Positions 1 through 21,478 of a stretch of DNA of 32,413 bases are shown piece after piece (position 1 is the first letter of the stretch; every line of letters begins with the position of its first letter). The stretch is from Synechocystis salina LEGE 00031 (GTDB lineage Bacteria > Cyanobacteriota > Cyanobacteriia > Cyanobacteriales > Microcystaceae). The notes under the pieces are model-generated. The model had not been told where the DNA came from and did not search any database. It saw only the letters and a list, made by a program, of their open reading frames with translations. The position numbers and the translations under genes were made by a program. The stretch covers positions 1 to 32,413 of the forward strand of contig NZ_JADEVV010000048.1 of assembly GCF_015207985.1 (NCBI RefSeq), written 5' to 3'.

Positions 1-127
1 TTTCAACGGTGGGATCACCGACAAAAATATGGGCTTCATAGATGAATTGACTAACATCATCGGCCATCAAATGTAGTAATTCTTCTGAGTTAACACGACC
101 CACGGGGACAAAGGCCAGGCGTTTTTT
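1..127. repeat. Terminal overlap, copy 1 (circular junction)
   Basis: These 127 bases are identical to bases 32287-32413. An exact overlap of 127 at the two contig ends is what a k-mer assembler leaves on a closed circle. The large minus-strand frame also continues through the join without a break, which supports circularity. True circle size would be 32,286 bp. A real terminal repeat is possible but less likely. Confidence 0.95.
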
Positions 128-3100
128 ATCTAGCCCCGCATCCCCGGTAATCCGAGTATGAATCGTTGACCGCAACATCACTAACAGGGTGAACAAATCA
201 TTGGTTTGGCGTAACCAGTGCCGGGTCAAAGCTTCTTGTTCTGAGGACGAAGCATCGGACGGTGTAAAGAAAAAATCTTGCATCAACATCACTAACCGTC
301 GCTCCCGGCGATCGCCATTAATCCATTTACCCGTTAGCGGATCGGAGTAAAATCCCCGGCCTCGGTAAATCAGTTGGGCAATTTCCATCAGAGACGACTC
401 CACCTGGAAGCGGGGCACTAGGGCAATAATGCAATCTGCTTTTGGAAAAGAAACCCCCCGTGAGCCAGAAGAGGTAACTAGAAAGACCTTCACCTGTTCC
501 TGCTTAGGAGATTGGACTAATTTCAGCCGTTGTTTTTCCGATACGTTTTGATCCAAAATTTCGATTTCCCCAGGGGTCAAAACAGGGGATAAATTTTTAT
601 GGCAAAAGTGCTTTAGATCCCGCAAAAAACGCTTATCTTGGGCGAAAAAAATCACCTGCTCTGCTCCACTGTCAAGAGCCCGTTGAATTTCTCCATAGGC
701 ATTAACCAGCAACTCTTCCCCGGTTTGTTGTTTGATCAATTGATGGCGACGGATCAGACCATCATCCGCATTGGGATTTAATGCAATAATCGATAGCCGT
801 AACCGATAATCAATGGTTAAAGCGGTGGCAGGAAAACTATTGGTCATGACATGGAGAGTCGGTTTCCGTTTGCCATTGCCCACTTTTAATAGGGTTCCCG
901 TCACCTGAAAGGGAGAAATATGATCCGTTTTATCGCCCGGGGCAGAAGTATTAAGGCCATGACTCGGACTAATCAGCACTTTATCTGGCACTGAATCCCC
1001 GCCATTAAGATACCGATCTAAAACCACTTCGTTTGCCAAAGACGCATCGGCCAGAATTAAGATCACCCGAAACGCTGGGGCATCATCGGTGAAAGGATCA
1101 ATAAATTCCTGCTTGAGCCAGTCCGCCAATTTATGGCAAAACAAAGACCCTGCGCCATCCCCCGCAATTTCATCCACCATCGCCACGACGGTGGGAATTT
1201 TTTCGGCAAAGAGCCGTCTTTCTTGTTTTCCCAACGCACTATTAAACGTGTTCTGAAACACGAGACTTAAGCCATCGATCGTCGTTCTATTGATTAATTC
1301 TCGGTAGCTTTGAGTGGCCGCAGTGAGCACTAACCGATTGATGCCCGGATTAACGGCAAGTAAATTTTTTGTGGCGGTGGCGATCGTTCGTAATACTCCC
1401 GGTGTCAGCCGATTGGTCATCCGATCCGTGCGTTCATTCAGGTTTTGTTTACGCCGTCGAGAAGGGGTGATTTCAGTTTCGATCGCCTGCTCTTGCTGTG
1501 GCGTGACATAAAGAATACTGTCCTGGGGCAGGGTCAAAGGACGATGACCGTCAACCACCACCGCGCTCTCTTTTTTAAGCGTTGGATCTGTCTGTGGCTG
1601 TTGTCGATACCATTCAGGGGCCGCATTAATCAATTTTGCGTTACTGGTAATCGTTAAAATACCGGGGGACTGGCTGGGTAAATCTGCGGGCGAGGAGGGG
1701 ACAGAAAATTTGCTGGTAACTTCTCGATTAATCACCACCCGAGGACTGACATAAAAAAAGAGAAAGCCCTGGGTTTGTTGGCGCAAAAATTCAATAACCG
1801 CCGTTGTTTTGCCAATGCCAGGATTGCCTTCTAATGCAATGACCCGCATTTCACCGACCGGAGCCTGGTTTAATCCCGCAATAATCGCCGCTGCATGGGC
1901 ATTGCGTAGGGCAATATGATCCCTTTCTTTTGCTTTGGCTTGCATTTCTGTCTGAATAACGGCGATGGGATTTTGCCCAAAAAATTGTTCTAATTCCGGC
2001 GTTACCGTGACATTGTTTAAAGCGAAAGCGATCGCCATTTCCTGCATCGGTTGATAAAAATCTGTCACAACCTCTGCGATATCGACCTGAAAATCTTCTC
2101 CTAATGGTGCCTGCTCTAATAAGGATTTTACCTGGTGTTTAAAAGCCTTCGGTAAGGATTTAAGAATGGTCTTAAACACCCCTCGAATCTCTTGGGTTAA
2201 GCCGTCGGTATGGCTGTCGGGGATTTTATCTCGCTGTCGATAGACCTCTCCTAAGGTTTCCATTAATTTCACCCGGGGATCGCGGTCTAGGGTTGGGTGC
2301 GGTTCAAACGTTGCCCCGATGCTCTCTAGCCCCTGATTGGTGACGGCGATCGCCATACCCTGACAACCCTTCGCCAGATAACCCTGATTGCGTAAAAGTT
2401 TGGCAAAGGCCGTTACATAGGCCGCTCCCTGGCAGAGTTTATAAAAGGGCTTATCCCGACTAATCAACCCATTCAAAAAACTAGCCAAACGGGGAGGAAT
2501 ATCCACTGCTTCTCCCTCCACCTCTGCACAAACCCGTGCAAACACTCCCCGTGATTCCATCACATTGGCATAGCGCAATACCTCTAAACGATGGGCTTCC
2601 TCCCCACGGTAATCATTAAGTAAATTCGGGGGGACACTATAGGACAATTCCAAACACAGGATTTGATCCTCTTTATTACGCCGTAATGGCGTTAACCACA
2701 ATAAAAAATCCGCCCGCGCCGGTTGCCCCACGGCCACTAACTCAGGATCAGGGCGATGGTTTGGATAGAGTTGGGGGAAACTTTGTTGAAAATTGGCTAT
2801 GGTTTCTGCCCGTTCTAATTCCCCCTCCAGATCCACATTAGGCAACACTAACGGACACCAAAATCCAGCCAATTGATAACGCTCGACTTTTATTGGTTTC
2901 AACCACTCCCGTACCGTTGTCCACCCCAAGCCATACCCCATCACTAATAGATGATCGACTCCTGATTTAGCCCAAATCTGGGCTTCTGGATCGGTGATAT
3001 TTAGCTGACGAATTAACGCCTGGGTTAGTTGAGAAACTTTAATCCTTTGCCAGGGTTGTAAATGGGGATGGGAAGCACTCAATAGCCCCCGATGCAGTAA

Positions 3101-3190: not shown

Positions 3191-6100
3191 TTAACGATGC
3201 AACACAGACGATAAATGACTCAAAATTGCTGGATAGCTCAACAGAGTATTTCCTCGACGGCGACTGCTCAAAATTTCCACATCCCCTGCCGCTTCTTTGG
3301 TGGTCGGGGTAATCCAGCCATAGGGATTAAGGATTGGCAAAATTCCCCTGTTATCTAGTTTTTCTGCCTCAAGAAAATGCACCCCCCGTAACACACTAAT
3401 TAATCCTGGCTGTAACAAAGAACTACCATCAGCATTGAGCAAATGTTGTCGGGCCCGTTCTGTCCAGGCTCGATTACTAACCCGCTCCTCAGAAAGTAAA
3501 AAGTAGGTACAAAAGCCAGATTGAGGACGTTGATCATACATTTTGCCGACCACCGCTAAAGTGGCAAACGTATAGGCAGGAATTAAGTCTCGTACCGTTT
3601 TTCGTTCTAGTGAGGACATTGATCCCCTCGGTGATCGCCAAAGGTCTCCATGGTGTTCCGCACGATTGATTTCAAAGCCCGCTTCGTTCGGTGGACGTTG
3701 ATATAAACGGGTGGCGGGAAATTCATCTTTAACGAGGGGATAAAGGGTCAGTTCAGGAAAGGTTTGAAAAACATCTTCTAAAAAGTTAGGTTGAATTAAG
3801 AAATTTGTTTGGGGAGCAGTACGATTCAGTTTACGCCCGCCGTAGCTGTGGGCAATCAGCAAAATATGTTCACATCCCTGCTGTTGTAGTTGATAAATGG
3901 CTTCTTTGATGAGGCGGGGTTGGCGATTTTGATCTCCTAAATTCAAAATATCGACATCGGTACGAAACGCTTGAATTTGATAACCTGAAAATGGTTCGGC
4001 GATCGCCGTTGCAAGATAACTTTTGCTAACTAAAAGATGATAGTTTAAACCCTGTTCCCGCTGGGGATAGTCATCACAGGGACGGGTGGCATAGGTAATC
4101 ATGCCAATTTTGGCGAGATGGGGCGGGGTGGGGGTACTCAGTTGTAAAGGAAACGCACTCAACAGGGCGCGGAAACTTCCTTGTTGGATGTAACTGCTAC
4201 CGCTCTTTTTCAGATTTTCCAAAACAAAGCCCTGCATCCGTAGGGAAATATCTTGATTTAAAACCGTTTCCAGACTTTGAGCCGCGGCATAAACATAGGT
4301 CTCGCCACTGGTAAAATCCCGGCTATCATCGGCTTTGTTTTGAATCCTGACCATTAGCGCTGTAAACATTTCAGGAGTTAAGCTTTTCAGGCGTTGAATA
4401 ATGCGCCAAAGGGTGACATAGACCAAGACTTCAAAGGCTACGATCCCAGCGGCGTGGTATTGCGCTCTCGTTTCATAGTCATCAGAGGAAAGATTGCTTT
4501 GTTTGCCTTTGACACTCCTCTCTAGGGTTCTGGCTTCATATTCCACCTGAATAGCGGCCTCTAAAGCCCAAATTTTGGCATCTTTGGCGATCGCCGTTGG
4601 TTGATAATTCCAGGTTTTCTGGCCTTCCTTCGTTTGACTTTCAACCGTTTCATGGGGAACCCACAAAATTTGTAAAAGTTTGGGCGAAAACACCCGCTTA
4701 GCTTGCAAGGTAACCGACGGTGTATTTTGAAAAACCAGATTATGCCCTGATAGATAAGTTTTCACTTCCACGGAAAATAAATTCAAGGTTTGGGGGCGAT
4801 CGCCAATGGTCAAATGTTTAAACCATTCCACCTGTTCCGCCCCGCCACTGCCACGCAATAAACCGCTGGTTTGTTCCGATTCCAAACGATCCCAATTGAT
4901 GATACTGCGCTGTACCTCAATAAATTGCCGACTACTCCGCTGTTTAATTTTCTCCAACAAGCCATTATCCTGAGTCCGCACTAACGTCATTAACGCCGTA
5001 GCTAAGCCCATCACCAGATTTTTCTTGTCCCGCAGTCCTGCAATCAGAACCTCAATTTTGCCCTGAATTCCCAGTCCATCAGGGGCAGATAACCAAGCCA
5101 ATCGGTCCCGAAATTGCTTCAGCCAAGCTTGTCCGTCAAAGTCCTCTAGGGGATTATCCTCTGTGGGAAAAGCACTGGGAATGACACTATCTAAAAATAA
5201 AAGTTGCGCTAAATTACGATTAATTTGATGGGTTTTAACCCCTTGGGATTGACTCGAATCAAGGGCATCCATGAGGGTCTGACGAATACGGTCTAAACGA
5301 CTTTCATAGGCAGTTTTCCCGGTGTCAGGATTTTTACCATTGACGCGGAAACGATAGGTAACTTCCCGTTGCACCACCTCCCCCGTCTCCATCATGGTTT
5401 TTTCTTCAAAAATTTGTGCCTTCGCTTCTGGCCAGACAGCAAGACATCCAAAAAAGAGGGCTTGGTTGAGATATTCATTCAATGTAAATTGGCAACCCGT
5501 CCCAAAATAACCACTCAGATCAACCGCCAAGCTTTCCGTCTGACCCAGGGCTACTACTCCCAAAACCCGATCCACATAATCCACCAATCCCCCCCGATTG
5601 CCATAGGGACGTTGACGGGAGATCGCCGCAATTTCCGCCATAATGCCAAAGGTAATGTTGAGGCGAACCCGGGCCAACGCTTCATTTTCTAAAAAATTGA
5701 TAAAACGTCTAATCTGACTATCATTCCCTTCCCGTTCCTTTTGTAAACTATCCAACGCAGCCTCAATATCATCCTCGTCTTTTTCCTCCTGTTCCAAATA
5801 AGTGGCGATCGCCCCCATCAATTTTTGAAAATAATCCTGAGCATCCACCTGTTCTAAAGCAGAAATCACTTTGGCTACGGGTTTTTCCGAGGAAGAAGAC
5901 TGATCGGATTGAGGCTGGAACACTACAGATCGGATCGTTGCCCCCTGGGGTTCATCTTTGCCCGGTAATTTGGCCCCAAGGCGATCGCCTAATGTTGTTA
6001 ACTGTGTTTCAGTATCCGTTAGTAAAAGTGACAGTAGAGTGGCATCGGTTAGCCCACTAACCTCAATCGCCTGATCAATTTCTGCCGAAAGACGATCCAG

Positions 6101-6478
6101 CAATTTAGGTAAACGCTTCTGATTATCCGCCGCTAACCGTCCCCCTAACCGGGCAATTTCACCTAGTCTAGGAGGAGTGAAGTCCTGAACAAATCCGGTT
6201 TTTTGTTCTTGTGAATTAACCTTAAATACATTACGAAATTTTGCCGAAGAAAAAAGACGACGCAATACCCCCGAGGTACAAATTCTTAAGCGTTTTCGAT
6301 TAGAATCGAATTTAATAAACTGTCGCTGTTGAGGATTTTTATTGTCTGATGTCAGAACTAAGTTATTATTTTCAATATTACTGACAACAGCAGTTAAAAC
6401 TTCAATAAGCGTGGCTAAATCAATAGCAGGCTGACGACTGAATACCTGCAGCCGCGCCCCAGAGGGGGGAATATCCAT
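3191..6478 (-). CDS. 1095-aa protein of unknown family, possible PIWI/RNase H-like C-terminal region
   Basis: I do not recognise this protein as a named family. It is cytoplasmic in appearance, with no signal peptide or membrane segment. Residues about 225-260 are highly charged and probably coiled coil. From about residue 790 there is an alternation of strands and helices: IGMITYATRP, a helix, then HILLIAHSYGG near 870, a helix, then LTLYPLVKDEFPATRLY, and a final strand with RGVHFLE. This order resembles the PIWI fold, in which a strand ending in a His/Arg motif is followed by a helix and a strand ending in Lys...Arg. I infer this from pattern only. The start is supported by AAGGAGA eight bases before the ATG. 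It is the first gene of the minus-strand pair, directly upstream of the 1311-aa helicase, so the two products probably act together. Confidence 0.8.
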   Translation of the reverse strand: MDIPPSGARLQVFSRQPAIDLATLIEVLTAVVSNIENNNLVLTSDNKNPQQRQFIKFDSNRKRLRICTSGVLRRLFSSAKFRNVFKVNSQEQKTGFVQDFTPPRLGEIARLGGRLAADNQKRLPKLLDRLSAEIDQAIEVSGLTDATLLSLLLTDTETQLTTLGDRLGAKLPGKDEPQGATIRSVVFQPQSDQSSSSEKPVAKVISALEQVDAQDYFQKLMGAIATYLEQEEKDEDDIEAALDSLQKEREGNDSQIRRFINFLENEALARVRLNITFGIMAEIAAISRQRPYGNRGGLVDYVDRVLGVVALGQTESLAVDLSGYFGTGCQFTLNEYLNQALFFGCLAVWPEAKAQIFEEKTMMETGEVVQREVTYRFRVNGKNPDTGKTAYESRLDRIRQTLMDALDSSQSQGVKTHQINRNLAQLLFLDSVIPSAFPTEDNPLEDFDGQAWLKQFRDRLAWLSAPDGLGIQGKIEVLIAGLRDKKNLVMGLATALMTLVRTQDNGLLEKIKQRSSRQFIEVQRSIINWDRLESEQTSGLLRGSGGAEQVEWFKHLTIGDRPQTLNLFSVEVKTYLSGHNLVFQNTPSVTLQAKRVFSPKLLQILWVPHETVESQTKEGQKTWNYQPTAIAKDAKIWALEAAIQVEYEARTLERSVKGKQSNLSSDDYETRAQYHAAGIVAFEVLVYVTLWRIIQRLKSLTPEMFTALMVRIQNKADDSRDFTSGETYVYAAAQSLETVLNQDISLRMQGFVLENLKKSGSSYIQQGSFRALLSAFPLQLSTPTPPHLAKIGMITYATRPCDDYPQREQGLNYHLLVSKSYLATAIAEPFSGYQIQAFRTDVDILNLGDQNRQPRLIKEAIYQLQQQGCEHILLIAHSYGGRKLNRTAPQTNFLIQPNFLEDVFQTFPELTLYPLVKDEFPATRLYQRPPNEAGFEINRAEHHGDLWRSPRGSMSSLERKTVRDLIPAYTFATLAVVGKMYDQRPQSGFCTYFLLSEERVSNRAWTERARQHLLNADGSSLLQPGLISVLRGVHFLEAEKLDNRGILPILNPYGWITPTTKEAAGDVEILSSRRRGNTLLSYPAILSHLSSVLHR

Positions 6479-6754
6479 GATAGGGGTCTCCTTAATAATT
6501 CAGTAATTAAACTGCTTCACCTATTCCGCTTGACCCGGCGGAAAGATGGACTCTCTCTTCCTTATAGCACCTTGTAGCATAGGATTGCCTAAAAAATTAA
6601 GTATTAGGGGCTTGAAGTGCGGTAAAACAAATATTGTCAAGGTCTCTATTCAGCTCACCTTTCGTAAGCAGACTCCACGGCAGACAGGGTTAGCTTCGAG
6701 CAATGTTAAACCGAGTTACCATTCAATAAATTCCTCTGTTTCTATATCCCCGCA
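6479..6754. promoter_or_regulatory. Divergent intergenic region between the two defence operons
   Basis: This 276-bp gap separates the start codons of the 1095-aa gene and the DUF499 gene, so promoters for both arms of the array must lie here or overlap it. The only clear signal is AAGGAGA (minus strand, 6493-6487), a ribosome binding site for the 1095-aa gene. The plus-strand DUF499 gene has no obvious Shine-Dalgarno. No strong -35/-10 pair was found on either strand. Confidence 0.6.
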
Positions 6755-9700
6755 ATGAAACACCTATTTGAAATCTGTCAGCCCCGTTCCGACATCTTGC
6801 AGGGAACTGTCCAGGAGTCCGATTTTGCGGCGGACTTGGCTCAGGTGATCAATGGTAGCGCCCCTAGGGAATATCGTGTTGCTAAAGAATTTTTTCATAA
6901 TACTCATCCCACCAAAGGGCTACAGACCCTATTAAAGACGGTTTGCCAACGGCTTACAGGGCAAGGAGGGACGGCGGTTTTGCGTCTTGATACCCAATAT
7001 GGAGGGGGAAAAACCCATAGTCTGATTGCTTTAACTCACGCCGCATCGGGAATGCCAGGAGTGGAAAAGGTTGAAGAGTTTATTGACCCATCGCTTATTC
7101 CCCAAGAAAAAGTTTGTGTTGCCGCTTTTGATGGCGAAAATGCAGATCCAACGAATGGTCGCTTATTGGGGGATGGGGTGCGGGCATATACGCCTTGGGG
7201 AGAAATTGCCTATGGATTGGCCGGGCCGGCGGGTTATGAAATTGTACGCCAGAGTGATATTGAACGGGTGGCTCCGGGGGCAGATACGATCCGGGAGTTG
7301 TTTGCCGATCGCCCGGCGTTGATTCTATTGGATGAGTTATCAATTTATTTACGGAAAATCAAGGGCAGAAAGGAACAAGAACAGTTAACTCCATTCTTGA
7401 CGGGATTGTTTAAAGCAGTTAGTTCATCTCCAAAGGCTTGTGTGGTCTTTACCCTGGCGATTGGTAAGGAAGGGAGGGCCAAAGATGCCTACGCCCAGGA
7501 AAATGAGTTTGTGGCGGAGAAACTGGAGGAAGCGATTAAGGTGGCAGGCCGGGTAGCAACTTTGTTGAACCCAACCACGGAACAAGAAACCGTCCAGGTA
7601 CTGCGCCGCCGCCTGTTTAGCCATATTGATGATCAAGCTGCTCAAGAGGTGATTTCAGCCTATCAACAGCTATGGATTAATCACCGGCAAGATTTACCTG
7701 CGGAGGCATTGAATAGTGATCAAATTGATCAGTTCCGGCTGGGATTTCCCTTCCATCCAGCGCTAATGTCCCTGCTGACCGATAAACTTTCCACCCTCAG
7801 CACTTTTCAACGGGTACGGGGAATGTTGCGACTGTTGACTCGGACGATCGCCGATTTATGGGTGACTCGGCCAGCCAACACCCATGCGTTGCATCTGCAT
7901 CATATCAATCCAGGCTATACCCCCATTCGGGATGAAATTAATGCCAAGTTGGAGATGGGACGATTTGATCCGGTGATTGAAAATGATGTGTCCTCAGCCC
8001 AAGGAACATCCCTAGCCCAACAGTTAGATGCCCGCTGGTATGGTGGCTTGGCTCCCTATGGCTCCTTTGTGGCCAGAAATATTCTTTGGCATACCTTTGC
8101 CTTTAATGAAGCACTCCAGGGCATTGATGAAACCAATCTTCGTTACAGTATTTTGTCCCCAGGTTTGGAAGTCAGCTTTATCCAGGATGCCCGACAAAGA
8201 TTTATCCACGATTCTGCCTATTTGGACGATCGCCCGGCTGCCCCCCTACGATTTCTATCCGAGGTCAACCTAACCCAGTTAATCCGTCGTCAAACGGAAA
8301 TGGTTGATCTGAATGAAGCCAGGGTTCAACTTCAGGATCGGATCGAACAGATTTTCAAGGGTCGCTACTTCAACCTAATTCTTTTTCCCCAGGGCCCCTA
8401 TGAAGTACCGGATGATGCAGGCAATGGCAAGCCCTTGTTGGTTTTATTGAGTTACGACGCGATCGCCGTTCCTTTTGATATAACTCAAGTGCCTGAGCTG
8501 GTGGAGCGAATTTATTCTTGCCAAGGGTCTAACGAGGATTTCCGGCACCTGAAAAATAATCTAGTCTTCTTGGTGGCCGATGAATCTAAGCGGGGAGACA
8601 TGAAGGAAAAGGTTAAATATCGGTTGGCTTTGGAAGCAATGAGAACACCAGATAGACTCAAGCAATTACCTGAACATCAACAGGATAAAGTCAAAGAATT
8701 ACATCAACGCTCTGAGCAAGAAATTGCTGTATTGATCCAGCAATGCTATCGTCATTTGTTCTATCCCAGTCCCAGCAAATTAGAGGGAGCGAATGTTAAT
8801 CTCGCCCATGCCACCATTGACTTACCTGCCACTTCCCAAAAGCCAGGGGATGGACAGCAACAGGTGGTACAAACCTTAATTAATAATCGGCGATTAATCT
8901 TGGCCGATGGTGACCCCCCTAACCCTCCAGCGGTGAGGGATGCCACGACTTTAAGAAAGGGACAAATTAGCACGGCGGAGTTGCGCTCAGAGTTCCGCAA
9001 AAATATTCGCCTGTCGATCATGATTGGTGATGATCCTTTCACCAAAATGATCCGGGATGGTATCCACCGCGATTTGTTCGTCTATAAATACCAGGATTTG
9101 TTGTGGGGCCCTGGTGATCCTTTTGCTGAGATCAAAATTGATGAGCAAGCCTTTGTCTATACGTTGAATTACGCTACCGAAATTGGTATTTGGCCCCGTC
9201 AACCTAAACCTGTTGCGCCGCCGGTTACGTCTGATCCAACGCCATCGGGTGGAGCTTATTATCCAACGGGGACAACATCTGGTTCTGGCCCCACCGTAAC
9301 TGAATTTCGCTCTGCCACCGATGAGTTTGTTATCCAGCCAAGTATTACTGAGGTGAAACCCCAAGGTTTTAGGCATGAAGCACCCCTAAAGCAAGCTCTA
9401 ACCCAAATCTGGGAAGATGCCCGCAGTTTCCATGTCCAAAAAATCATTAGGATGACATTGCGGGTCTTTGAGTCGGGAGACGCTTTTAAACTCATGGGGG
9501 CGATCGCCAGTCGGGTTAATAACGCAACTATCATGGTCAAGCTGGAGGGGAGTTATGAAACCAGTAACGGCAGTGGCCTTGAAATTGAATTCAATGGGGC
9601 GATCGCCGATGTGGGGCCAATTAAAGATTTTCTGTCTGCTCAATTCCGGGCGGCGGCGGAAACTTCCTTGAATACGACTTTCGAGATCGATTATGCTCAA

Positions 9701-9802: not shown

Positions 9803-10306
9803 ATGGATAGCATTGCCGTACCTTTCGCCTCTCGACAGGCGGATCAGTTGGATCGTCTTCTGAATACAACCCAGCCCCGCTATCAACTCCGAGCAAAGCA
9901 ATTGTCATCGGTAGATCGCCTGTTGGAAATTTGGCAAATGCCCTGTAGTGCCACACCTCACTTAAAGCAACCGAAACGAGTGGCGGGCTTGAAGGGGCGG
10001 AATCTATCGTTGATTGAACCCCGACTAATCCGGCAGTTAAAGGTGCTGGAAATTGATCTGGCGGGCATAAAATCCACGCAGGAAAAGCAATTTGAGTTGG
10101 ATGAGGTATCAGCGCTTCGGCTGGGCCTAATGTTTCGGGTGCTGGCCCCTATGCGGAATCGGGACAATATGCGGCTCTGTGGGTCAGGGATTGAGGAAAT
10201 GGGCAAGGAAGAAGCGTCCTATTGGTTAGGGATGGCCATGCACCGCAAAAATCCCCGGCGGGTGTTGATGGCCCTACGCTGTCTGCTGACTGACCCCCAT
10301 CGTTAA
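9803..10306 (+). CDS. 167-aa protein coupled to the DUF499 ATPase
   Basis: The ATG follows the DUF499 stop codon with no intervening base, so translation is almost surely coupled. The protein is basic and mostly helical, with a Leu- and Arg-rich C-terminus. No catalytic motif is visible and I do not recognise the family. In related DUF499/DUF1156 loci a small protein such as DUF3780 occupies a similar place, but I cannot claim that identity. Its likely role is a structural subunit of the ATPase complex. A strong promoter for hicA follows eleven bases after its stop. Confidence 0.75.
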   Translation: MDSIAVPFASRQADQLDRLLNTTQPRYQLRAKQLSSVDRLLEIWQMPCSATPHLKQPKRVAGLKGRNLSLIEPRLIRQLKVLEIDLAGIKSTQEKQFELDEVSALRLGLMFRVLAPMRNRDNMRLCGSGIEEMGKEEASYWLGMAMHRKNPRRVLMALRCLLTDPHR

Positions 10307-10964: not shown

Positions 10965-10985
10965 ATTACCCCATTACCCCATTAT
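10965..10985 (+). promoter_or_regulatory. Tandem 8-bp repeat before second toxin-antitoxin pair
   Basis: ATTACCCC occurs twice in a row (10965-10972 and 10973-10980), followed by a partial third ATTAT. It lies 18-38 bases upstream of the antitoxin start. Position and repetition suggest an operator for autoregulation, but no binding data can be read from sequence. Confidence 0.35.
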
Positions 10986-11002
10986 CACGAAGGGCAACAA
11001 TT

Positions 11003-11843: not shown

Positions 11844-13160
11844 ATGAGTAATTCTTTCAACCTATTTAAAAATAACAGCAACGAAATTTTTATCAAGTTA
11901 GATAATATTCTATTTATTCCTTTTGGAGTTGATTACATTCGCGAAGATATTATTCCTGTGCAAATGGAAACCTCCTATTCGGATGGTGTTGTCTTTAAAT
12001 ATAATGTTCCCTGTGCTACTATTAATACTTCTAAAAATGAGCCTATAAAGGTTAAAGATATTATCAAACTTTTACCTGGAGTTGATATATTGCCAATATC
12101 TGATGAAAGATTTAAACTGAAAAACCCCCAGAATGAAATTCAAGAAAATGGTCGGGTTGCCAAAAAGTATCTTGATTATTTGGTAGATATTTACACAGAA
12201 AATACAGGAGAGTATAAAGGCGGAAAGATTAGGTATCAAAGTGAATACAAGGTCTCGGAAGAAGCGTTTATAGACATTTACTTTGAACTATGTTGTCAGC
12301 AATTAAAAGATGCTGAACAGGAGTTTTGGACAAAAGGAATCAGAAAAAAGGCTGAGGAAAAATTTGAACAATCTCAACGAGAAGGGTGGCAGACTCCATT
12401 TAGCAACTCTGTAGAAGACTGGGAAGATGAGTTAAAGCACGGATATCTTGGGCATCATCATGCGGGGCTAGGCTATCCTTTTAACGATGGCAGGGTATTA
12501 TTTGAGATTTTATTACCGCTTCATTCTGCTCGTATGTCCTTTTTGACGGCTGATCTGGGCAATGCAATACGTCAATATAGACCGACTCAATCTCCATTTG
12601 ATTGGACTATTTATGATGGATTCTTAGAAGACGAAGAGCTTGTGCCAAAATGGTCTTCTAGCGGAACAAAATATCAGTCAAATAAGAACCTAGTCTCATT
12701 TTACGAACTTGATTTTTTATTTTGGGATGGCCAAGAATTTATTAGCATAGAGCTTGATGGCAATAGCAAAAAATTGTCAGATTATAGTGCCAAAAAAGAA
12801 AATCTCGAAAAATGCAACAACTTAACTTTAAGAAATCTAGCCAATAGAGATCTGGAATGGCTAATAAATCACTTTAGTTCTGAGTCTTCTCCTGATTTAG
12901 AATATCGGACTGAAACACTATCGGCATTGTTTTCTGAACCTGTTTTGAAATTTTGGGAGACAGTTGAAGAAGAATCACCCATTACAAAACTCTTCAATAA
13001 ACAAGAGTGGGACAAAAATCACCACATGTATGATACAGATGATTACAAATATTCATTCTCAGCTAGAAAAAAAAGATTAGATGAAGAAATTTATCCTCAA
13101 CTTCCTTGGCACTTACGTTATCCCGATGGATATGTTTACTTTGATGATCCGACGGAATAA
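11844..13160 (+). CDS. 438-aa putative nuclease (Vsr/DUF559-like core), AT-rich cargo
   Basis: Family not recognised. Residues about 287-308 read ELDFLFWDGQEF then ISIELDG, the pattern Asp-Phe...Ile-Glu-x-Asp-Gly found in Vsr-like and DUF559 endonuclease folds, followed by a helix rich in Lys. I infer a DNA-cutting role, moderately. An excellent ribosome binding site (AAGGAG, 11830-11835) stands before the ATG. Codon use is AT-rich, unlike the DUF499 and methyltransferase genes on either side, and no HIP1 site occurs in it, so it was probably acquired separately. It sits directly upstream of the DUF1156 methyltransferase, 44 bases away. Confidence 0.7.
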   Translation: MSNSFNLFKNNSNEIFIKLDNILFIPFGVDYIREDIIPVQMETSYSDGVVFKYNVPCATINTSKNEPIKVKDIIKLLPGVDILPISDERFKLKNPQNEIQENGRVAKKYLDYLVDIYTENTGEYKGGKIRYQSEYKVSEEAFIDIYFELCCQQLKDAEQEFWTKGIRKKAEEKFEQSQREGWQTPFSNSVEDWEDELKHGYLGHHHAGLGYPFNDGRVLFEILLPLHSARMSFLTADLGNAIRQYRPTQSPFDWTIYDGFLEDEELVPKWSSSGTKYQSNKNLVSFYELDFLFWDGQEFISIELDGNSKKLSDYSAKKENLEKCNNLTLRNLANRDLEWLINHFSSESSPDLEYRTETLSALFSEPVLKFWETVEEESPITKLFNKQEWDKNHHMYDTDDYKYSFSARKKRLDEEIYPQLPWHLRYPDGYVYFDDPTE

Positions 13161-13204: not shown

Positions 13205-16138
13205 ATGACCAGACGACTGATTGAAGAATGGCTTCCTGTGGCGGAGATTGGGATTGAAAGTTTGCGGGAACGAACCCCGATGACTCCTTTCCCTGCCCCG
13301 AATCGCCTTCATGTCTGGTGGGCCCGTCGTCCCTTGGTAGCTTCCCGTGCGGCGGTGTTGGCATCGTTGTTACCTGCGGATGCGGATCATAAACGATTTC
13401 TTCATGTGCTGGGGATTCATGGCGATCCAGTTGAGGCAAAAAAAAGAATTGCTAAGGCAACTCGTGAAGGGGTTCGACTAGGTTCAGCAGCCTATGGTTA
13501 TGAACGGGCTTTTAAGTATATTCCTAATGAAAAAGATCGAGAGTGGTTAGATTATGAAACTAAGCGAATTGGACTAGGATCGGCCACTGTCCTAGACCCT
13601 ACTGCGGGCGGTGGTAGTATTCCATTTGAATCCGTAAGACTAGGTTTTAATACCATCGCTAATGATCTTAATCCCGTCGCTGCATTAATTGAAAAGGCAA
13701 CTATTGAATTTCCCTTGAAATATGGAGCAGAGCTATTAGAAGAATACAATCAAATTAGCTCGGAATTCGTGAAGAGAGTCAGGGAAAAATTAGCCGGAAC
13801 TTTTCCAGAAGAATCTAAAGAAAATACCATTCCAGATGGTTATCTTTACGCTCGAACGATCGCCTGTCCATATTGCGATCGCCAAGTGCCGTTATCCCCG
13901 AATTGGAAACTATCCCCGTCAGGTATTGGTGTTAAGCTTAAACCCGATCTAGAGAAAGGTATTTGCAACTTTGAGATCGTCCACAAGGTCAAAGATCAAT
14001 CCCCCGGCACGGTCAGCGGCGGTGATGCTCAATGCCCCTATCCTGACTGCGAAAGGGTGATCAATGGCGATGACATCAAAGCCCAAGCTCAAGCGGGACA
14101 AATGGGCGACAAGCTCTTTGCAGTGGTCTATAAAGAACGGGTTTTAACGACGACCAAGACAGGGAAAACACGGGAGAAATGGGAGCGAGGTTATCGTGCG
14201 CCCGTGGCAGAGGATGACAATATCGAAGAGATAAAAGAAAAGCTGGCTGACAAGTTAATTGACTGGGAATCTTTAGATTTAGTCCCAAGTGAATTATTGC
14301 CGATGAATACGGAATCGTGGACACATGGCAATACTCCTGCTCAGTATGATGCTAAAAATTTTCTAGACTTATTCAATCCCCGGCAATTATTTTGTCATGG
14401 TACAAGTATCGAAATCTTTCGAGAAATGATAGATAAGAGAGAACATGAAGGCACATTTAATGAGATTACAAAAGCTGCATTCATCTACCTTAGTTTCGCT
14501 CTGGATAAGTTAAGAGACTATAACTCTCGTATGACCCGATGGCATAATAAACGAGAAGTAATGGTCAACACTTTTGATCGCCACGATTTTGCATACAAAG
14601 CCTCTTACGCAGAGATGGCTCCTCTGATTGTTGGTCTAGGCTACGATTGGGCACTCGAACAAACAGGAAAATGCCTAAAAGAACTTTTACAACTCACTCG
14701 CCCAGACCTCAACCTAAGCCAAGTCAAAGGCAAAGGTAATCAGCAAGAACTATTCCCAAAAAATCAGAATTTAACGATAGATATTATCAATGAATCCGGC
14801 GATAACCTCTACCACTTGGACAATGAAAGTATAGATGCTGTCGTCTTTGATCCGCCCTACTACGACAACGTTATGTATGCCGAATGTAGCGATTTCTTCT
14901 ATGTCTGGCTCAAGCGGACAGCCGGTTATCTTTACCCCGAACTCTTCACTCGACAACTCACCGACAAAGAAAACGAAGCTGTTGCCAACCCCGCCAAGTT
15001 CCAAGGGGAAAAAGGGGCGAAAAATTTAGCTTATTTGGACTATCGGGAACGGATGGCAGCCATCTTTGCCGAATGTAAACGAGTGCTGAAGCCCGACGGC
15101 ATATTGACCCTCATGTTTACCCACAAAGCCCAGGGTGCTTGGGATGCCCTCGCCAGTGGCTTGCTCGATGCCGGATTTGTGATCACCGCGTCCTGGCCCA
15201 TCAACACCGAAGCCGAAGGCAGTTTGCATATTAAAGACAAAGCCGCCGCCAAAAGTACCATTTTCCTTGTCTGTCGTCCCCAGGGAGCCAAGCCCGAAGA
15301 AACCCTTTATTGGGAAGACCTCGAACCCGTCATCACCCAGACAGTCCGTAAACGAGTCGGCGAATTCCAAGGCTATGGCATCAAAGGCGTCGATCTTTAC
15401 CTTTCCTGTTTTGGCCCCGCTCTCCAAGTCCTCTCCGAACACTGGCCCCTCGCCCGCAGTACCCCCAAAGCCCGTCCCAAGCTCAAGGGTCGCACCAAGC
15501 AAGCCGAACTCTTTGACGATTTTGATCCCTACGCTGTTAACCCCGAAGATGCCTTGGAAGCTGCCCGTGCCGAAGTGAAACGCTGGCGTATGGAAACTCT
15601 GCTGGGCACCACCCGCAAAACTAACCTAGACCCCCTCACCGAATGGTTTGTCCTCGCCTGGGATGCCTTTGAAGCCCCGCAGTTCCCCTACGATGAAGCC
15701 CTACGCCTGGCTAGGGTAGTCGGCCTCGATCTCGATAAAGATGTAGTCAAAAAGATTGCCGAAAAAAAAGGCTCCAACCTCATCCTCTGGGACAGTAACC
15801 AACGCGCCCTGAAAAATAGCCTCGGTTCCCCCGACGGCTCCAACTCCATGCTCGACGCCATCCACCATGCCGCCTACCGTGCCCGCACAAATGGGTTAGA
15901 AGCCGCCCGCACCCTACTGGAAAATAACGCCTTGGTTGAAGAACCCGACTTCCAAAATGCCCTGGCCGCCGTGTTGGAAGTATTACCCGTTTCCAGCACC
16001 TTCACTGGCTTCGATGACGAAAAAGGCGAAGTAGCCGAGGCCGCCCAGGACTTTGATGTGTTGGAAAACCTCCGCCGCCTACTATTCAGTGAAACCGTCC
16101 CCCGACCCAAACAGCTAGAAATTTGGTCAGAGCAATGA
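13205..16138 (+). CDS. DUF1156 DNA methyltransferase (likely N6-adenine)
   Basis: The 977-aa product starts with the DUF1156 signature ([11 protein letters not shown]...[11 protein letters not shown], residues 5-45). The S-adenosylmethionine motif [12 protein letters not shown] lies at about 130-142 and the catalytic motif DPPYYDN at about 547-553; DPPY favours adenine N6 methylation. Between them CPYC (about 220) and CPYPDC (about 276) form a probable zinc ribbon for DNA binding. The C-terminal 300 residues are helical and may recognise the target or partners. In defence arrays this enzyme marks self DNA, while the associated ATPase, helicases and nucleases act on unmarked DNA. Base composition changes within the gene: the first two thirds are mixed, the last third GC-richer. 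Its TGA overlaps the Uma2 start as ATGA. Confidence 0.9.
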
Positions 16139-16770
16139 TTACCTCCACCCCCGCTCGTATCACCGAAAACCGCACCCTTTTAACGGGGATTCGCTGGCAA
16201 ACCTATCAGGATTTGCTCCTGGATCTCGCGGAAAATCCCAGTAAACGTCTGACTTATGATCAAGGTCTTTTAGAAATCATGACGCCCCTACCCGAACACG
16301 AAGCCAGTAAACGCCTGTTGGGTCGGCTAGTGGAGTCCACCACCGAAGAATTGGGCCTAGAGATTTATAGCCTTGGCTCCACCACCTGGCGACGGGAAGA
16401 CCTGCAAAAAGGACTAGAACCCGACGAATGTTATTACATCACCCAAGAAGCCCAAGTCCGGGGCAAAACTACCTTTGATCTAAATACAGATCCGGCTCCA
16501 GACTTAGCCATTGAAATTGACCTGACCAGCAGTTCCCTCAATCGCTTGAGTATCTATGCCGCCCTGGGAGTCCGAGAAATCTGGCGATATGACGGCCAAG
16601 ACCTGAAAATATACATCTTGGTTGAAGGAGAATATCAACAACAAGAACAATCCAGCGTCTTACCTATCCTAAGTCGCTCCGATGTATTGGTCTTCCTAAA
16701 CAAGAGAAGTACCCTAGGGGAAAACGCTTTGATTCGGGAATTTCGCCAATGGCTACACCAGCAAGATTGA
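16135..16770 (+). CDS. Uma2-family PD-(D/E)XK nuclease
   Basis: The start is the ATG at 16135, which overlaps the methyltransferase stop by four bases. The 211-aa product is a standard Uma2 protein: [11 protein letters not shown] near the N-terminus, [13 protein letters not shown], then APDLAIEID and [10 protein letters not shown], which carry the acidic residues of the fold. Uma2 proteins are highly expanded in cyanobacteria, and their function is poorly known. Being translationally coupled to a methyltransferase is unusual for the family and suggests recruitment into the defence array. Confidence 0.85.
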
Positions 16771-16885: not shown

Positions 16886-16926
16886 ACGACTTAAGATTCT
16901 CTCAAATGGACTCAAGAGGAACAAAA

Positions 16927-18156
16927 ATGTATCCCTTCAGTAACATTGATACCTTTACCGTGTTTCAAAATGTTGTCGAAAAAGTGGTACAAGAAATCAA
17001 GAATCTTAATAATGAATATATACTTAAAGCATCTCAAACCGAATTAGAAGATTTTTATATTGACAAGGTAAGTATTGAACCGATTTCTTTGCTTATAGAC
17101 GAACTTTATATTGAAGAACAAACTTCGGTTCAAATAGACGTAAGTAATGATTCTCGAAGATTTATTATTCCTGGACGGACAGCTTTAGTGCCGGGGACTC
17201 GTTTAGATGTGGCAGTTCCCTATGAAGGAGATCCAGAACTATGGAAAATTAAACCATCCTGTTACACTCTCAGCAGCTATCCAGAAATTTTAGTTCGGAA
17301 AAATGAGATTGTCCTTAGTATTTCTTTTACTGATGATTTAGTGAACTCGTTAGACTTGAAATCTAAGATTAATCGTGATATTGAGTTGTTAGCTAATACA
17401 ATACAAAATCTAAGATCAGATGTTGAAAACCATAATAGAGGTGCTCCCGATAGAGTTAAAGAAGCACTTCAGCTTAAACGACACCAGGCTGAAACTGCGG
17501 TGGGCGCTGTTGCAGCCCTAGAGATACCCATAAAACGAAGGAACAAACCTTTAACTTTTACTGTCCCAACATCACGTCGAAAATCTCCAAAAAGTAGACC
17601 AAAAGTTAATACTGAAGTATATAAACTAGAACCTACTTTAGATGAAGCAGAATATCAGCATATTCTTGAGGTCATGAGGGGAATGTCACTAGTTATTGAA
17701 AGAAGTCCATCTTCTTTTTCTACTCTAGATGAAGAAGCAATTCGCACACACTTTCTCCTTCAGCTCAATGGTCACTATGAAGGTAATGCATCAGGTGAAA
17801 CTTTTAATGCATCAGGTAAAACAGACATTTTAATTAGAGTTGAAAATAGAAATATTTTTATTGCTGAGTGTAAATTTTGGTGTGGCGCAAAAGCATTTAA
17901 TAATGCTGTCAATCAGTTGTTAGGTTACTTGTCGTGGAGAGATACAAAGTGTGCCTTACTCATCTTCAATAGAACTAAAGATTCATCAGGTGTTAAACAA
18001 AAAATGCATGACGCCATGGAAGGACGCTCAGAGTATAGAAAAACTGTTTTATATGATCCACATAAAGATTCTAGATATATTTTTGTTAAAGAATCTGATC
18101 CAGGTCGCGAGATTATAATAACAACACAGCTTTATGACATCCCCACTTTATCTTGA
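16927..18156 (+). CDS. 409-aa PD-(D/E)XK restriction-type nuclease, AT-rich cargo
   Basis: I chose the ATG at 16927 because AGAGGA lies nine bases upstream; an in-frame ATG at 16906 lacks a site. The C-terminal region carries a clear nuclease core: GKTDILI (Asp), IFIAECKFW (Glu-x-Lys), then NQLLGYL (Gln) followed by the strand CALLIFNR. This is the restriction-endonuclease fold. The N-terminal 230 residues have no recognised domain and include a helical, Glu/Arg-rich segment that may be a coiled coil. The gene is markedly AT-rich and lacks HIP1, like the 438-aa gene. It lies between the methyltransferase/Uma2 pair and the PLD-SNF2 helicase, and probably acts as an effector of the array. Confidence 0.8.
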   Translation: MYPFSNIDTFTVFQNVVEKVVQEIKNLNNEYILKASQTELEDFYIDKVSIEPISLLIDELYIEEQTSVQIDVSNDSRRFIIPGRTALVPGTRLDVAVPYEGDPELWKIKPSCYTLSSYPEILVRKNEIVLSISFTDDLVNSLDLKSKINRDIELLANTIQNLRSDVENHNRGAPDRVKEALQLKRHQAETAVGAVAALEIPIKRRNKPLTFTVPTSRRKSPKSRPKVNTEVYKLEPTLDEAEYQHILEVMRGMSLVIERSPSSFSTLDEEAIRTHFLLQLNGHYEGNASGETFNASGKTDILIRVENRNIFIAECKFWCGAKAFNNAVNQLLGYLSWRDTKCALLIFNRTKDSSGVKQKMHDAMEGRSEYRKTVLYDPHKDSRYIFVKESDPGREIIITTQLYDIPTLS

Positions 18157-18265
18157 TTAAAAGCATAGCTAACTGTTCATTGGAGCAGATAGACGAGAGA
18201 CCTGGGTGAGAGGCTTACTTTAAATACTGCCGCTCAATTCAAGGCCGTTGGGCTCTTCTAAAAGC

Positions 18266-21200
18266 ATGGATCAAACAAACGTTTTTAGCCTGAAAGATCG
18301 CCAATGGCAACCCCGCTACGACTCCGACGTAGATAATTTGGTCAAAGACTTTTACGAACCCGCCCTCGAATGTGCCATCCGCTATGACAGGGTTTCAGGC
18401 TATTTTTCCCCAGCCATCTTGACCCTTGTGAGCCGAGGCATCGAAGGGCTAATCCGTAACCAAGGCAAAATGCGCCTCATTGTGGGCTGCACCCTCGATG
18501 AACCCGAAGTGGAGGCGATCGCCACCGGAGAAAAACTCAAGCAGATCCTGGCAACCAAACTGGCAACCCCCCTGGCACCCCAGACTCCCCACGAAGCCAA
18601 TGCTCTGGAATTACTATCCTGGCTCATCGCCCATGACTACCTGGAAATCAAGCTAGCTGTCCCCTGCACTCCCGATTATCGCCCCCTCGCCAACCAGTCC
18701 ATCTTCCATCCCAAAGCGGGCATCATCGAAGACTCCAACGACGATCGCCTAGCCTTCAACGGCAGTAATAATGAGACTGTGCAAGGGTGGACAGGCAACT
18801 GGGAAAGTTTTCACGTCTTTACCGACTGGCAAGGCTCCTCCGTTCATGTGGACAGCGAAGAAAAAACCTTTGCAGAATTATGGGCCGGACGGGCACGACG
18901 CTGCTTAGTTGTGGACATTCCCACCGCCGTCCAAGAAAACCTACTTCGCTTTTTGCCCCCTAATGGTCAACTCCCCCAACGACTGGTTTTTGACGATCAG
19001 CTTATTTCACCCTTTCAAGATGCCAAGGGAGACGGCCAGCTCCTTACCGTTCCTAGGCCAGATTCACCCCCGCAAGCCGAAGAAGTTTACGACCCCCAAG
19101 CCCTTTTCAAACAGGTGTGGGCCACCATTAAATACGGCCCCGCAGTACCCGGTAACGGCGATCGCATTGGGGAAGTTACTTCCGCCATCAAGCCCTATCC
19201 CCATCAAATTAAAGCCTTCCAGCGGCTTTACAATAATTGGCCCCCGAAATTATTAATCGCCGATGAAGTTGGACTAGGGAAAACCATTCAAGCCGGATTA
19301 CTGATCCGACAAGCCTGGCTTGCAGGCAAGGCCAAACGGATTTTAATCATGGCTCCCAAAGCTGTGCTCAAGCAGTGGCAGTTAGAGCTACGGGAAAAAT
19401 TTAACCTTAATATTCCCATCTATGACGGTAAGACCTTAACCTGGTGCGAGTCCCCTGCCATGGCGGCCTTAGACAAACCCATTCAAAAACCTGTTTCCCG
19501 TCGGGATTGGCATCAAGAACCCTTGGTAATTACTTCTAGTCACCTGATGCGCCGTGGCGATCGCCGGTTGGAATTGTCCCAAGATGCCGAACCATTCGAC
19601 CTAATTATTTTGGATGAAGCCCACCACGCTCGCCGTCGGGGGGTCAGTGGCAGTCAACCAAAAGGGGCAAACAAATTGCTCAATCTTATGCAGGAACTGA
19701 AGGGGAAAACCCAAGGTTTAGTGCTCCTTACCGCAACCCCCATGCAGGTTAGCCCCATTGAAGTGTGGGACTTATTGAACCTATTGGGACTGCCCCCGGA
19801 GTGGGATCTACAGAGCTTCCAGCGATTTTTTGACTACGCCGCCCACGACAACCCCTCCCATACCCAATTCGAGTACATGGCCCGACTCTTCCGGGCAGTG
19901 GAACAACATTTCGGGCCCACTCCCCTAGAAGACTTCCAAAAATACTTCCCCCAGGCCAGTAACTTAGCCCTTAAAAAAGTAGTTCGTGCCCTGTTGGATG
20001 AGGCCCAAGCTCCCCGCAAAGCTCTGAGTACAGACCGGCGCAAAATGGCGATCGCCATCATGAAACGCAATACCCCTATCCAAAGACTCATCTCCCGCCA
20101 TACCCGTACCCTCCTCAGAAAATATTACGAAGCCGGAAAGATCAGTAGTCGCATTGCCCAACGGTATGTCAAAGATGAATTTGTCACCCTCAGTCCAGCG
20201 GAACGGGAATTATACGAGGCGATCGAAAACTATATTTCCACCACCTACAACAATGCCTCCCAGTCCGAGCAAAATGCAGTGGGCTTTGTGATGACAATTT
20301 ATCGCCGCCGTCTTGCCAGTAGCTTTGCCGCCCTTGCCCGTACCATCGAGCAACGTTTGGACAAACTAAATAATAAACATTCCAGTCAACTTGAACTGAA
20401 CTTGGAAGACCTAGACGACGATGAAGTTTCAGAAGAGCCCATCGATGAAGACGAAGCTCAACAGCTAGAGCAAGAGGCCCTTAAAAATGAAGAATGCTAC
20501 GATTTAGAATCCCTGCTGCAACAGATTAAGCAATTACCCACCGACACCAAAGCCCAAGAGTTGAGACGATATATCCAACAATTGCATGGGATAGGCTACC
20601 CCCAGATCATCATTTTTACTCAATACACAGATACGATGGACTTCTTGCGGCAGTCCTTAACTGAAGCCGATCCAGCTAGCCGCATCATTTGCTTTTCCGG
20701 CCGAGGGGGCGAACGACGTAATGGCGATCGCTGGGAATCCATTTCCCGAGAAGAGACTAAACGCATTTTCAGGGCTGGGCAAGCCGAAATATTACTTTGT
20801 ACCGATGCTGCCGCCGAGGGGCTGAATTTTCAATTCTGTGGCGCATTAATCAACTACGACATGCCCTGGAATCCGATGCGGGTTGAACAACGAATCGGAC
20901 GCATTGACCGCTTGGGACAGATTTTTGCCGACCAAGGTATAACCATTGTCAATCTCCATTATGCTGACACTGTTGAAACTGATGTCTACATTGCCTTGAG
21001 AGATCGGATCGATCTATTTACCCAGTATGTAGGGAGATTACAACCGATTCTTTCTACCCTATCCCAACGTATTACTTCAATTGTTCTTTCTTCAAAAGAT
21101 GATCGAGAAAACAATAAAAACGAAATTTTGGAACAACTTGAAGTGGAAACTAATCAACAAGATATATTCGATATTGATCAAGTTACTGAAGCAGATCTAG

Positions 21201-21478
21201 AAGAAGAATTATTACCTACTCCCTTATACGATCTCGATGACCTTGATCACTTATTAAATAAGGTAGATCTCCTACCTCCAGGCATTGAAGTCCAGGTAAT
21301 GCAGGCCAAAGAATACCGCTATTCCCAAGCAGGGATGAAGTACGGACTAAGGGTTACAACTGATCCTGAATATTACGACCTACACTCCAGCAGTATCGAA
21401 CTTTGGTCACCCGGGAATATCTTATTCCCGATAGTTGAAGTTCCAGAAGGAAGCAAGCCGAAACAACTAAAGCTATGA
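18266..21478 (+). CDS. PLD-SNF2 helicase fusion of antiphage array
   Basis: The start is the ATG at 18266, giving 1070 aa. Residues 20-180 form a phospholipase D-like domain; its single HKD-type motif is FHPKAG near 148 with GSNNE near 168. A SNF2/SF2 helicase follows: DEVGLGKT (about 333), ILDEAHHAR (about 448), TATPMQ (about 492), IFTQYTD, TDAAAEGLNFQ and QRIGRIDRLGQ (about 875). A highly acidic linker occurs near 710-745. Such fusions accompany DUF499 and DUF1156 genes in defence loci. The PLD part may cleave DNA, but one HKD motif usually requires dimerisation. DISARM splits comparable functions between DrmD and DrmC. Its stop lies two bases from the stop of the convergent terB-like gene. 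Confidence 0.9.
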   Translation: MDQTNVFSLKDRQWQPRYDSDVDNLVKDFYEPALECAIRYDRVSGYFSPAILTLVSRGIEGLIRNQGKMRLIVGCTLDEPEVEAIATGEKLKQILATKLATPLAPQTPHEANALELLSWLIAHDYLEIKLAVPCTPDYRPLANQSIFHPKAGIIEDSNDDRLAFNGSNNETVQGWTGNWESFHVFTDWQGSSVHVDSEEKTFAELWAGRARRCLVVDIPTAVQENLLRFLPPNGQLPQRLVFDDQLISPFQDAKGDGQLLTVPRPDSPPQAEEVYDPQALFKQVWATIKYGPAVPGNGDRIGEVTSAIKPYPHQIKAFQRLYNNWPPKLLIADEVGLGKTIQAGLLIRQAWLAGKAKRILIMAPKAVLKQWQLELREKFNLNIPIYDGKTLTWCESPAMAALDKPIQKPVSRRDWHQEPLVITSSHLMRRGDRRLELSQDAEPFDLIILDEAHHARRRGVSGSQPKGANKLLNLMQELKGKTQGLVLLTATPMQVSPIEVWDLLNLLGLPPEWDLQSFQRFFDYAAHDNPSHTQFEYMARLFRAVEQHFGPTPLEDFQKYFPQASNLALKKVVRALLDEAQAPRKALSTDRRKMAIAIMKRNTPIQRLISRHTRTLLRKYYEAGKISSRIAQRYVKDEFVTLSPAERELYEAIENYISTTYNNASQSEQNAVGFVMTIYRRRLASSFAALARTIEQRLDKLNNKHSSQLELNLEDLDDDEVSEEPIDEDEAQQLEQEALKNEECYDLESLLQQIKQLPTDTKAQELRRYIQQLHGIGYPQIIIFTQYTDTMDFLRQSLTEADPASRIICFSGRGGERRNGDRWESISREETKRIFRAGQAEILLCTDAAAEGLNFQFCGALINYDMPWNPMRVEQRIGRIDRLGQIFADQGITIVNLHYADTVETDVYIALRDRIDLFTQYVGRLQPILSTLSQRITSIVLSSKDDRENNKNEILEQLEVETNQQDIFDIDQVTEADLEEELLPTPLYDLDDLDHLLNKVDLLPPGIEVQVMQAKEYRYSQAGMKYGLRVTTDPEYYDLHSSSIELWSPGNILFPIVEVPEGSKPKQLKL

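Follow-up and report, generated by a model that had tools for sequence, protein, structure and literature searches.

A DUF499-type gene core with DUF7680 and an unnamed helicase pair, back to back on a plasmid of Synechocystis salina LEGE 00031

The locus and its molecule

The stretch of DNA analysed here (the window) has 32,413 bases and is the entire contig C97 of the assembly of Synechocystis salina LEGE 00031 (3.97 Mb, 115 contigs). It carries two sets of genes that diverge from an intergenic region of 276 bp (6479..6754). On the plus strand, a core of four genes encodes a DUF499 ATPase, a small DUF7680 protein, a DUF1156 DNA methyltransferase and a helicase with phospholipase D (PLD) and SNF2 domains; on the minus strand, a pair of genes encodes a protein of 1095 amino acids (aa) and a superfamily 2 (SF2) helicase of 1311 aa (Table 1). 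Judged from sequence comparisons, these are quite probably two separate modules lying back to back by chance, of which the core is a variant of the DUF499-type defence systems and the pair an independent and likely defensive unit. The evidence for their separateness is the lack of linkage elsewhere. When the proteins of the window were compared by tblastn (E 1e-6) with 20 loci, each of 16-33 kb, in which the pair or a remainder of it is present, no relative of the DUF499, DUF7680, DUF1156 or PLD-helicase proteins was found in any of them, and neither pair gene was found in the 28 loci (27 places) of DUF7680- or DUF3780-type systems.

Table 1. Features of the window, in order of position (the helicase of the pair is given in two parts)
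Feature	Position	Strand	Evidence
SF2 helicase, pair gene 2, N-terminal 1061 codons	1..3184	-	Helicase_C E 3e-7
Same helicase, C-terminal part over circular junction	31535..32413	-	31535-32286 without the duplicated end
1095-aa protein, pair gene 1	3191..6478	-	no known domain
DUF499 AAA+ ATPase, core gene 1	6755..9802	+	Pfam DUF499 E 6e-32; P-loop YGGGKTH
DUF7680 protein, core gene 2	9803..10306	+	Pfam DUF7680 E 2.6e-42
Two toxin-antitoxin-like pairs, gap 1	10352..11580	+	HicA/HicB-like, then antitoxin and RelE-like; names by eye
438-aa orphan, gap 1	11844..13160	+	ELDG motif, nuclease-like by eye
DUF1156 DNA amino-methyltransferase, core gene 3	13205..16138	+	Pfam DUF1156 E 3e-16
Uma2-family putative endonuclease (PDC-S17), gap 2	16123..16770	+	Pfam Uma2 E 3e-24; PADLOC PDC-S17 E 1e-47
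PDC-S54 candidate nuclease, gap 2	16906..18156	+	PADLOC PDC-S54 E 8e-133; C-terminal D307..E-C-K
PLD and SNF2 helicase, core gene 4	18248..21478	+	Pfam SNF2-rel_dom and Helicase_C
CyRepA1-type replicase (DUF3854), likely replication gene	23027..25909	+	Pfam DUF3854 E 2e-48

Bases 1-127 of the contig are identical to bases 32287-32413, as happens when an assembler cuts a circle open, so the contig probably represents a circular plasmid of 32,286 bp. The molecule encodes, according to Pfam, a ParA-like protein, a resolvase, an integrase-like protein and the DUF3854 replicase, and since the ParA-like, resolvase and replicase genes lie on it, a plasmid-borne array is supported. A first-pass annotation made from the letters alone had described positions 1-21478 as a composite defence array, carried by a plasmid and made up of two divergent arms. 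This description is upheld, as are the three recognisable families that it placed on one arm, which were matched in Pfam and PADLOC, and the two large proteins on the other. The span holds for the genes that lie in it, except that the C-terminal part of the minus-strand helicase is outside, at 31535-32286; the frame joined across the junction has 1311 aa and no stop. At least three candidate nucleases had also been proposed, which is borne out at the level of family names and motifs by the Uma2 protein, PDC-S54, the PLD domain and, on inspection by eye, the orphan of 438 aa.

The plasmid was compared with others by megablast, using positions 1-25000 of the window as query and leaving out the last 7.4 kb. 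The replicase stretch 23013-25000 has 86.8% DNA identity to NC_005230 of Synechocystis PCC 6803, where the gene is annotated as CyRepA1 family, and the replicase region is 84.6% identical to its counterpart in Synechocystis sp. B12. The replicase and one toxin-antitoxin stretch were the only shared parts, and therefore no sister plasmid was seen for this portion of the window. NC_005230 is taken here to be pSYSA. The likeness to this molecule consists in the CyRepA1-type replicase, at the identity given over the matched 2 kb. CyRepA1 is described as the protein that replicates pSYSA; this defence plasmid of Synechocystis PCC 6803 likewise carries many defence and toxin-antitoxin genes but has a size of about 100 kb against the 32 kb found here (PMC9978351). 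The defence systems also differ, no CRISPR-Cas family being among the Pfam matches of the window. In Synechocystis sp. B12, the plasmid with the similar replicase (unnamed3) has a DUF1156 gene in pieces (locus L132, 11645-14169) that sits near toxin-antitoxin and CRISPR-associated genes. Elsewhere in the window, a small TerB-like gene (21481-21930) lies on the opposite strand directly behind the PLD helicase, and the integrase-like gene (25933-27447) contains two adjoining 300-bp copies at 26725-27351 that are 79% identical.

The four-gene core and its relatives

The ATPase matches the PADLOC models HmaC (E 7e-101) and DUF499 (E 1e-38), and the methyltransferase, which has a DPPY motif at residue 549, matches HmaB (E 1e-68). 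In the fourth protein, SNF2 was found at E 5e-22 and PLDc_2 at E 4e-4, below the cut-off of Pfam; the best PADLOC models were PLD_Helicase (E 7e-77), PbeA (E 3.5e-75) and, further down, HmaA (E 9e-59). With HPK...ED (an H-x-K motif) at residue 154 and DEAH at residue 456, this protein is likely the DNA-cutting effector.

DUF499-centred BREX-Related (BR) systems, named after bacteriophage exclusion (BREX), were defined by Rakesh and Krishnan, who describe Type-2 as composed of DUF499, DUF3780, a DUF1156 methyltransferase and an HKD-SNF2 helicase and report DUF3780 in 98% of Type-2 BR taxa (PMC12839542). The core agrees with Type-2 in gene order, in the ATPase and methyltransferase and in the HKD/PLD domain at the N-terminus of the SNF2 helicase. 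It differs in having DUF7680 where DUF3780 is expected, in the two cargo-filled gaps of its operon and in scores under the NCBIfam equivalog cut-offs. As DUF3780 is absent (no match among the 19 proteins of the window scanned with Pfam), the core does not count as Type-2 BR in the strict sense; its build is alike, and it is best called a variant. The same gene order with DUF3780 occurs in Thermomicrobium roseum, where the last two genes are named anti-phage proteins by NCBI. Earlier names for this kind of system are Hma, for helicase, methylase and ATPase (PMC8565338), and those of the anti-phage-associated DUF499/DUF1156 families of NCBI, which the first-pass annotation had also given. The HmaC and HmaB matches agree with Hma, but the fourth gene, DUF7680, sets the core apart, as does the PLD-fused helicase, for which HmaA ranked below the PLD_Helicase, PbeA, BrxH and DrmD models. 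On the family matches, the plus arm is a divergent version of the DUF499-centred (Hma / BREX-Related) systems and is already described in kind (PMC12839542).

The first-pass annotation had held that the array is neither canonical BREX nor DISARM (defence island system associated with restriction-modification), and the searches agree. BREX is marked by PglZ and BrxL, and DISARM by DrmB with DUF1998. Neither PglZ nor BrxL turned up in the Pfam scan of the 19 proteins or among the PADLOC matches listed, which include weaker ones to the BrxC, PglX and BrxH models, of shared ancestry. DUF1998 was likewise absent from the 19 proteins, and neither it nor DrmB is among the PADLOC matches listed; those of the helicase (best 25 of 50 families) include the DrmD and DrmA models. 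In the part of the ARMADA text that was available (PMC12458937), DUF499 and DUF1156 are unmentioned.

Of the 386 cyanobacterial genomes searched, 27 have DUF7680, that of S. salina included, and so have 30 plasmid records, some of them haloarchaeal and some proteobacterial. The neighbourhood was studied in 25 DUF7680 loci (20 of 30 genome places fetched and five plasmid places), several of which end at contig or record ends. DUF499 was found on the same strand in 22 of them, the methyltransferase in 21 and the PLD helicase in 19; 16 of the loci have the full set of four core genes, and 24 have one or more core genes besides DUF7680. Loci L012 and L085 are one place, L012 being outside these 25 and inside the 28 loci of the linkage count; L130 and L131, of the DUF3780 type, were not counted among the 25. 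The four genes stand back to back, with overlaps or gaps of a few bases, on Sinorhizobium medicae pMl1 (L013) and Aminobacter pMET2 (L014), and the same compact run occurs in two cyanobacterial genomes (L089, L091). In the latter two, an open reading frame (ORF) of 1195 aa (L089, 13056-16643) or 1211 aa (L091, 13368-17003) lies upstream of DUF499 and overlaps it by 4 nt; no similarity of these ORFs to proteins of the window was reported, and they possibly encode a fifth component. In a tree of 23 methyltransferases, rooted by midpoint only, the enzyme of the window groups with that of the Nostoc plasmid pTCL26-01_C, with other cyanobacterial members and with two proteobacterial ones, and the two DUF3780-type enzymes included stand apart from this group.

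Profile comparisons point to a possible kinship of DUF7680 with DUF3780. When 101 sequences of about the same length were ranked by their match to the DUF7680 profile, two DUF3780 proteins took places 1 and 7, and both aligned over 82 columns in the same region of the profile, against 8-52 columns for the ten decoys in the best twelve. A two-sequence DUF3780 profile gave a P of 0.0025 against DUF7680, but a probability of 12% only. DUF7680 may thus be a divergent counterpart or distant homologue of DUF3780. A search for DUF3780 in 39 cyanobacterial genomes returned none, but its controls also gave nothing, which makes it uninformative. In the literature searched, no mention of DUF7680 was found, and DUF3780 was mentioned by PMC12839542 alone.

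The operon of the window is interrupted twice: gap 1 lies between DUF7680 and the methyltransferase and gap 2 between the methyltransferase and the PLD helicase. The second toxin-antitoxin-like pair of gap 1 (11015-11579) has 81% DNA identity to a stretch of a Synechocystis sp. B12 plasmid. The orphan had no match at E 0.01 in Pfam, PADLOC or NCBIfam and none among plasmids, and among 194 genomes it was found in its own only. The guanine-cytosine (GC) content is 0.349 in the orphan, 0.354 in PDC-S54 and 0.420 in the toxin-antitoxin stretch, against 0.486-0.530 in the core genes, and no cargo gene contains a HIP1 site. Of the 16 four-gene loci, 11 have a gap 1 of 424-4046 bp and 11 a gap 2 of 334-2974 bp; these sizes are distances between aligned parts and hence somewhat too large, and L072 and L081 contain broken genes. 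Both gaps are compact only on the two proteobacterial plasmids and in L089 and L091. Filled gaps are thus usual in the cyanobacterial loci examined and are therefore no peculiarity of the window.

The minus-strand pair and a second group

The 1095-aa protein had no match at E 0.01 in Pfam, PADLOC or NCBIfam, and its relatives gave no convincing E-value in PADLOC or Pfam. Its best match among solved structures was at chance level (E 0.43), and no relative was found in the viral contigs searched. For the helicase, Pfam gave nothing beyond the generic Helicase_C domain. The 1095-aa family was matched in 12 of 386 cyanobacterial genomes, that of S. salina included, with a shortened member in G374 and a fragment in G030; only part of the first-look candidates was scored in the genome searches, so this count, like the helicase counts of 11, 38 and 47 genomes given below, is a lower bound. 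It also occurs in six Nostocales contigs, which may share strains with the 386 genomes, and on four of 72,556 plasmid records (Cupriavidus, Acinetobacter and Acetobacter). Eleven genomes have the full helicase, and each of them belongs to the 12. In intact pairs, the 1095-aa gene is followed on the same strand by the helicase; the two overlap or lie no more than 101 bp apart, with L029 (about 470 bp) as the exception. Two of the 11 other genome places of the pair are on contigs longer than 4 Mb. By these comparisons, the pair is a genuine two-gene family without a name in the libraries searched.

Behind the pair of Acinetobacter piscicola lie genes for an HNH endonuclease and a WYL-domain protein (L010, 18911-20917). 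A third pair gene was considered in Acetobacter (L011) and rejected; the gene after the helicase is, to judge from its matches, probably a piece of a split helicase.

Related helicases, with open frames of 1010-1301 aa, were found in 38 of the 386 genomes; G048 and G127 carry both groups, and a helicase of either group is present in 47. Loci of this second group were fetched from 12 of the 38 genomes, and in 10 of the 12 a gene for a protein of about 1000 aa adjoins the helicase upstream; in L124 it lies about 2 kb upstream. A profile of ten of these large proteins matched that of the 1095-aa family at E 4e-30 and a probability of 99.8%, in an alignment of 945 columns, for which reason the two groups are regarded as kin; the assignment to groups rests on search and profile scores and not on a tree of the pair. 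Six plasmid records, each typed conjugative, carry the second-group large protein, which is annotated as 'hypothetical protein' in every one. On Trichormus plasmid C, the gene next to it is a 'helicase-related protein'. Six large proteins of the second group that were compared with Pfam and PADLOC received no name from either.

On aligning 18 helicases of both groups, it was observed that at least 17 keep G-N-P-G-I-G-K-T-T (453-461) and D-E (671-672), and at least 17 also R-G and S-F-P (909-914) and Y-R-G-R-G (940-944). With these helicase motifs conserved, the pair helicase is likely an active SF2 motor. In its N-terminal region, A-D (158-159) followed by E/D-x-S is present in all 18, a putative nuclease core that resembles PD-(D/E)xK with the lysine replaced. 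In the C-terminal part of the 1095-aa protein, the order of strands and helices recalls, by eye, RNase-H/PIWI, with the usual acidic residues missing. A comparison with the pPIWI-RE system, described as a PIWI-like protein, a DinG helicase and a restriction endonuclease (PMC3702460), shows likeness in the large protein beside an SF2 helicase and in the possibly RNase-H-like C-terminal order. The pair differs in having two genes rather than three and in the large protein coming before the helicase, and not after it as reported there. RNaseH_pPIWI_RE was not found in the genome of the window, nor was it among the best 25 of 40 Pfam families for 17 aligned relatives (A3), none of which was strong. 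Membership of the 1095-aa protein in pPIWI-RE was rejected, as hhalign gave a probability below 1% against three pPIWI-RE proteins, a weak negative in view of the shallow profile.

Probably separate modules and their possible roles

The first-pass annotation had suggested that the pair is an undescribed module of the same system as the core, so that the whole array would be one DUF499 system. The immediate divergent adjacency across 276 bp speaks for this, as does a mild excess of genomes that hold both: the pair and DUF7680 share a genome in 4 of 12 cases against 0.84 expected (P 0.006). Three of these four genomes, however, belong to one genus, and one DUF7680 match is a fragment of 33 positions; in the three genomes other than that of S. 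salina, the loci occupy separate contigs (in G048 and G147) or have about 2.7 Mb between them (in G064). A scan of 6300-6900 gave one promoter-like match, no more than in shuffles, and left a shared promoter unsupported. Since the 20 loci with the pair or a remainder of it lack the DUF499/DUF1156 arm, one of the two findings that the first-pass annotation had itself named as speaking against its idea, and since 16 of the 25 DUF7680 loci have the whole core and no pair, a single joint system was rejected for lack of linkage, and a common system is very improbable. 'Undescribed' fits the pair, as far as the libraries searched are concerned, but not the plus arm, given the published DUF499 systems (PMC12839542). 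Uma2 relatives were seen near the pair in 2 of the 20 loci. A few observations sit uneasily with separate modules, of which one is a DUF499-type defence system with inserted cargo and the other a likely defensive pair. Besides the shared genomes, the three large core proteins score far below the curated cut-offs of the NCBIfam anti-phage families (192 bits against 1200 for the ATPase and DUF499_antiphage). Uma2, counted as cargo, has a GC content of 0.488, like the core genes, and DUF7680, counted as core, also lacks a HIP1 site. One pair gene is shortened in G374 and no more than a remnant of the pair is left in G030, and the defence-rich neighbourhood of the pair, described below, is weak evidence that gives a hint only.

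It is improbable that the plus arm is simply Hma in its usual three-gene form, with DUF7680 as a mere passenger. HmaC and HmaB are indeed the best PADLOC matches for genes 1 and 3, but the helicase is matched better by PLD_Helicase than by HmaA, DUF7680 separates the DUF499 gene from that of the methyltransferase in compact operons of both proteobacteria and cyanobacteria, with DUF499 close by on the same strand in 22 of its 25 loci, and it takes the slot of DUF3780, itself near-universal in Type-2 BR taxa as reported (PMC12839542). For the pair, a second nucleic-acid-targeting defence system is the first choice, and a reasonably likely one, because of its patchy distribution, its mobile settings, its conserved two-gene unit and the hint of defence-rich neighbourhoods. 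In a set of 17 pair neighbourhoods (L006, L008 and L037 left out), 121 PADLOC families were matched among 125 neighbouring ORFs, against 66 among 116 control ORFs; families and not proteins are counted, and the controls include a CRISPR locus and other defence-like genes. The main rival is that the pair serves the maintenance of mobile elements, that is, the replication, repair or transfer of plasmids or islands. This is a less likely but serious alternative: the pair of the window is plasmid-borne, the second-group large protein is on plasmids all typed conjugative, and an integrase and a transposase are near it on Trichormus plasmid C. Against it stand the patchy distribution, the two places on contigs longer than 4 Mb, the rarity of the pair's own group on plasmids and the MADS, HEC-01, type I restriction and BREX-like families among the matches listed for the neighbouring ORFs.

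The best-supported mechanism for the core is the restriction model proposed in PMC12839542: its parts are present with their motifs, and their activity is presumed by analogy. The DUF1156 methyltransferase would mark the cell's own DNA and the DUF499 ATPase would assemble on incoming unmarked DNA; DUF7680 may be an adaptor or a reader of the mark, the SNF2 motor would travel along the DNA and the PLD domain would cut it. The toxin-antitoxin-like pairs and stand-alone nucleases of the gaps could be back-up effectors or stabilisers of the locus. In the pair, the 1095-aa protein would recognise the target and the helicase unwind or degrade it. A bolder and rather doubtful version makes the pair a member of a large two-gene defence superfamily, so far undescribed, that would be shared by cyanobacteria and some proteobacteria. 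In this superfamily, a PIWI/RNase-H-like protein without activity of its own would act as guide or sensor, and the target would be destroyed by a helicase whose N-terminal domain is nuclease-like.

The interest of the locus lies in a DUF7680 branch with cargo gaps and, more so, in an unnamed two-gene superfamily. The DUF499 (BREX-Related) systems appear to have a branch in which the small protein DUF7680 replaces DUF3780, and this branch gives a named target for learning the role of the fourth subunit. The gaps of its operons, which often hold toxin-antitoxin-like and nuclease genes, are an easily sampled place to seek unknown effectors. The pair, as a tightly conserved unnamed family, is directly testable in model cyanobacteria.

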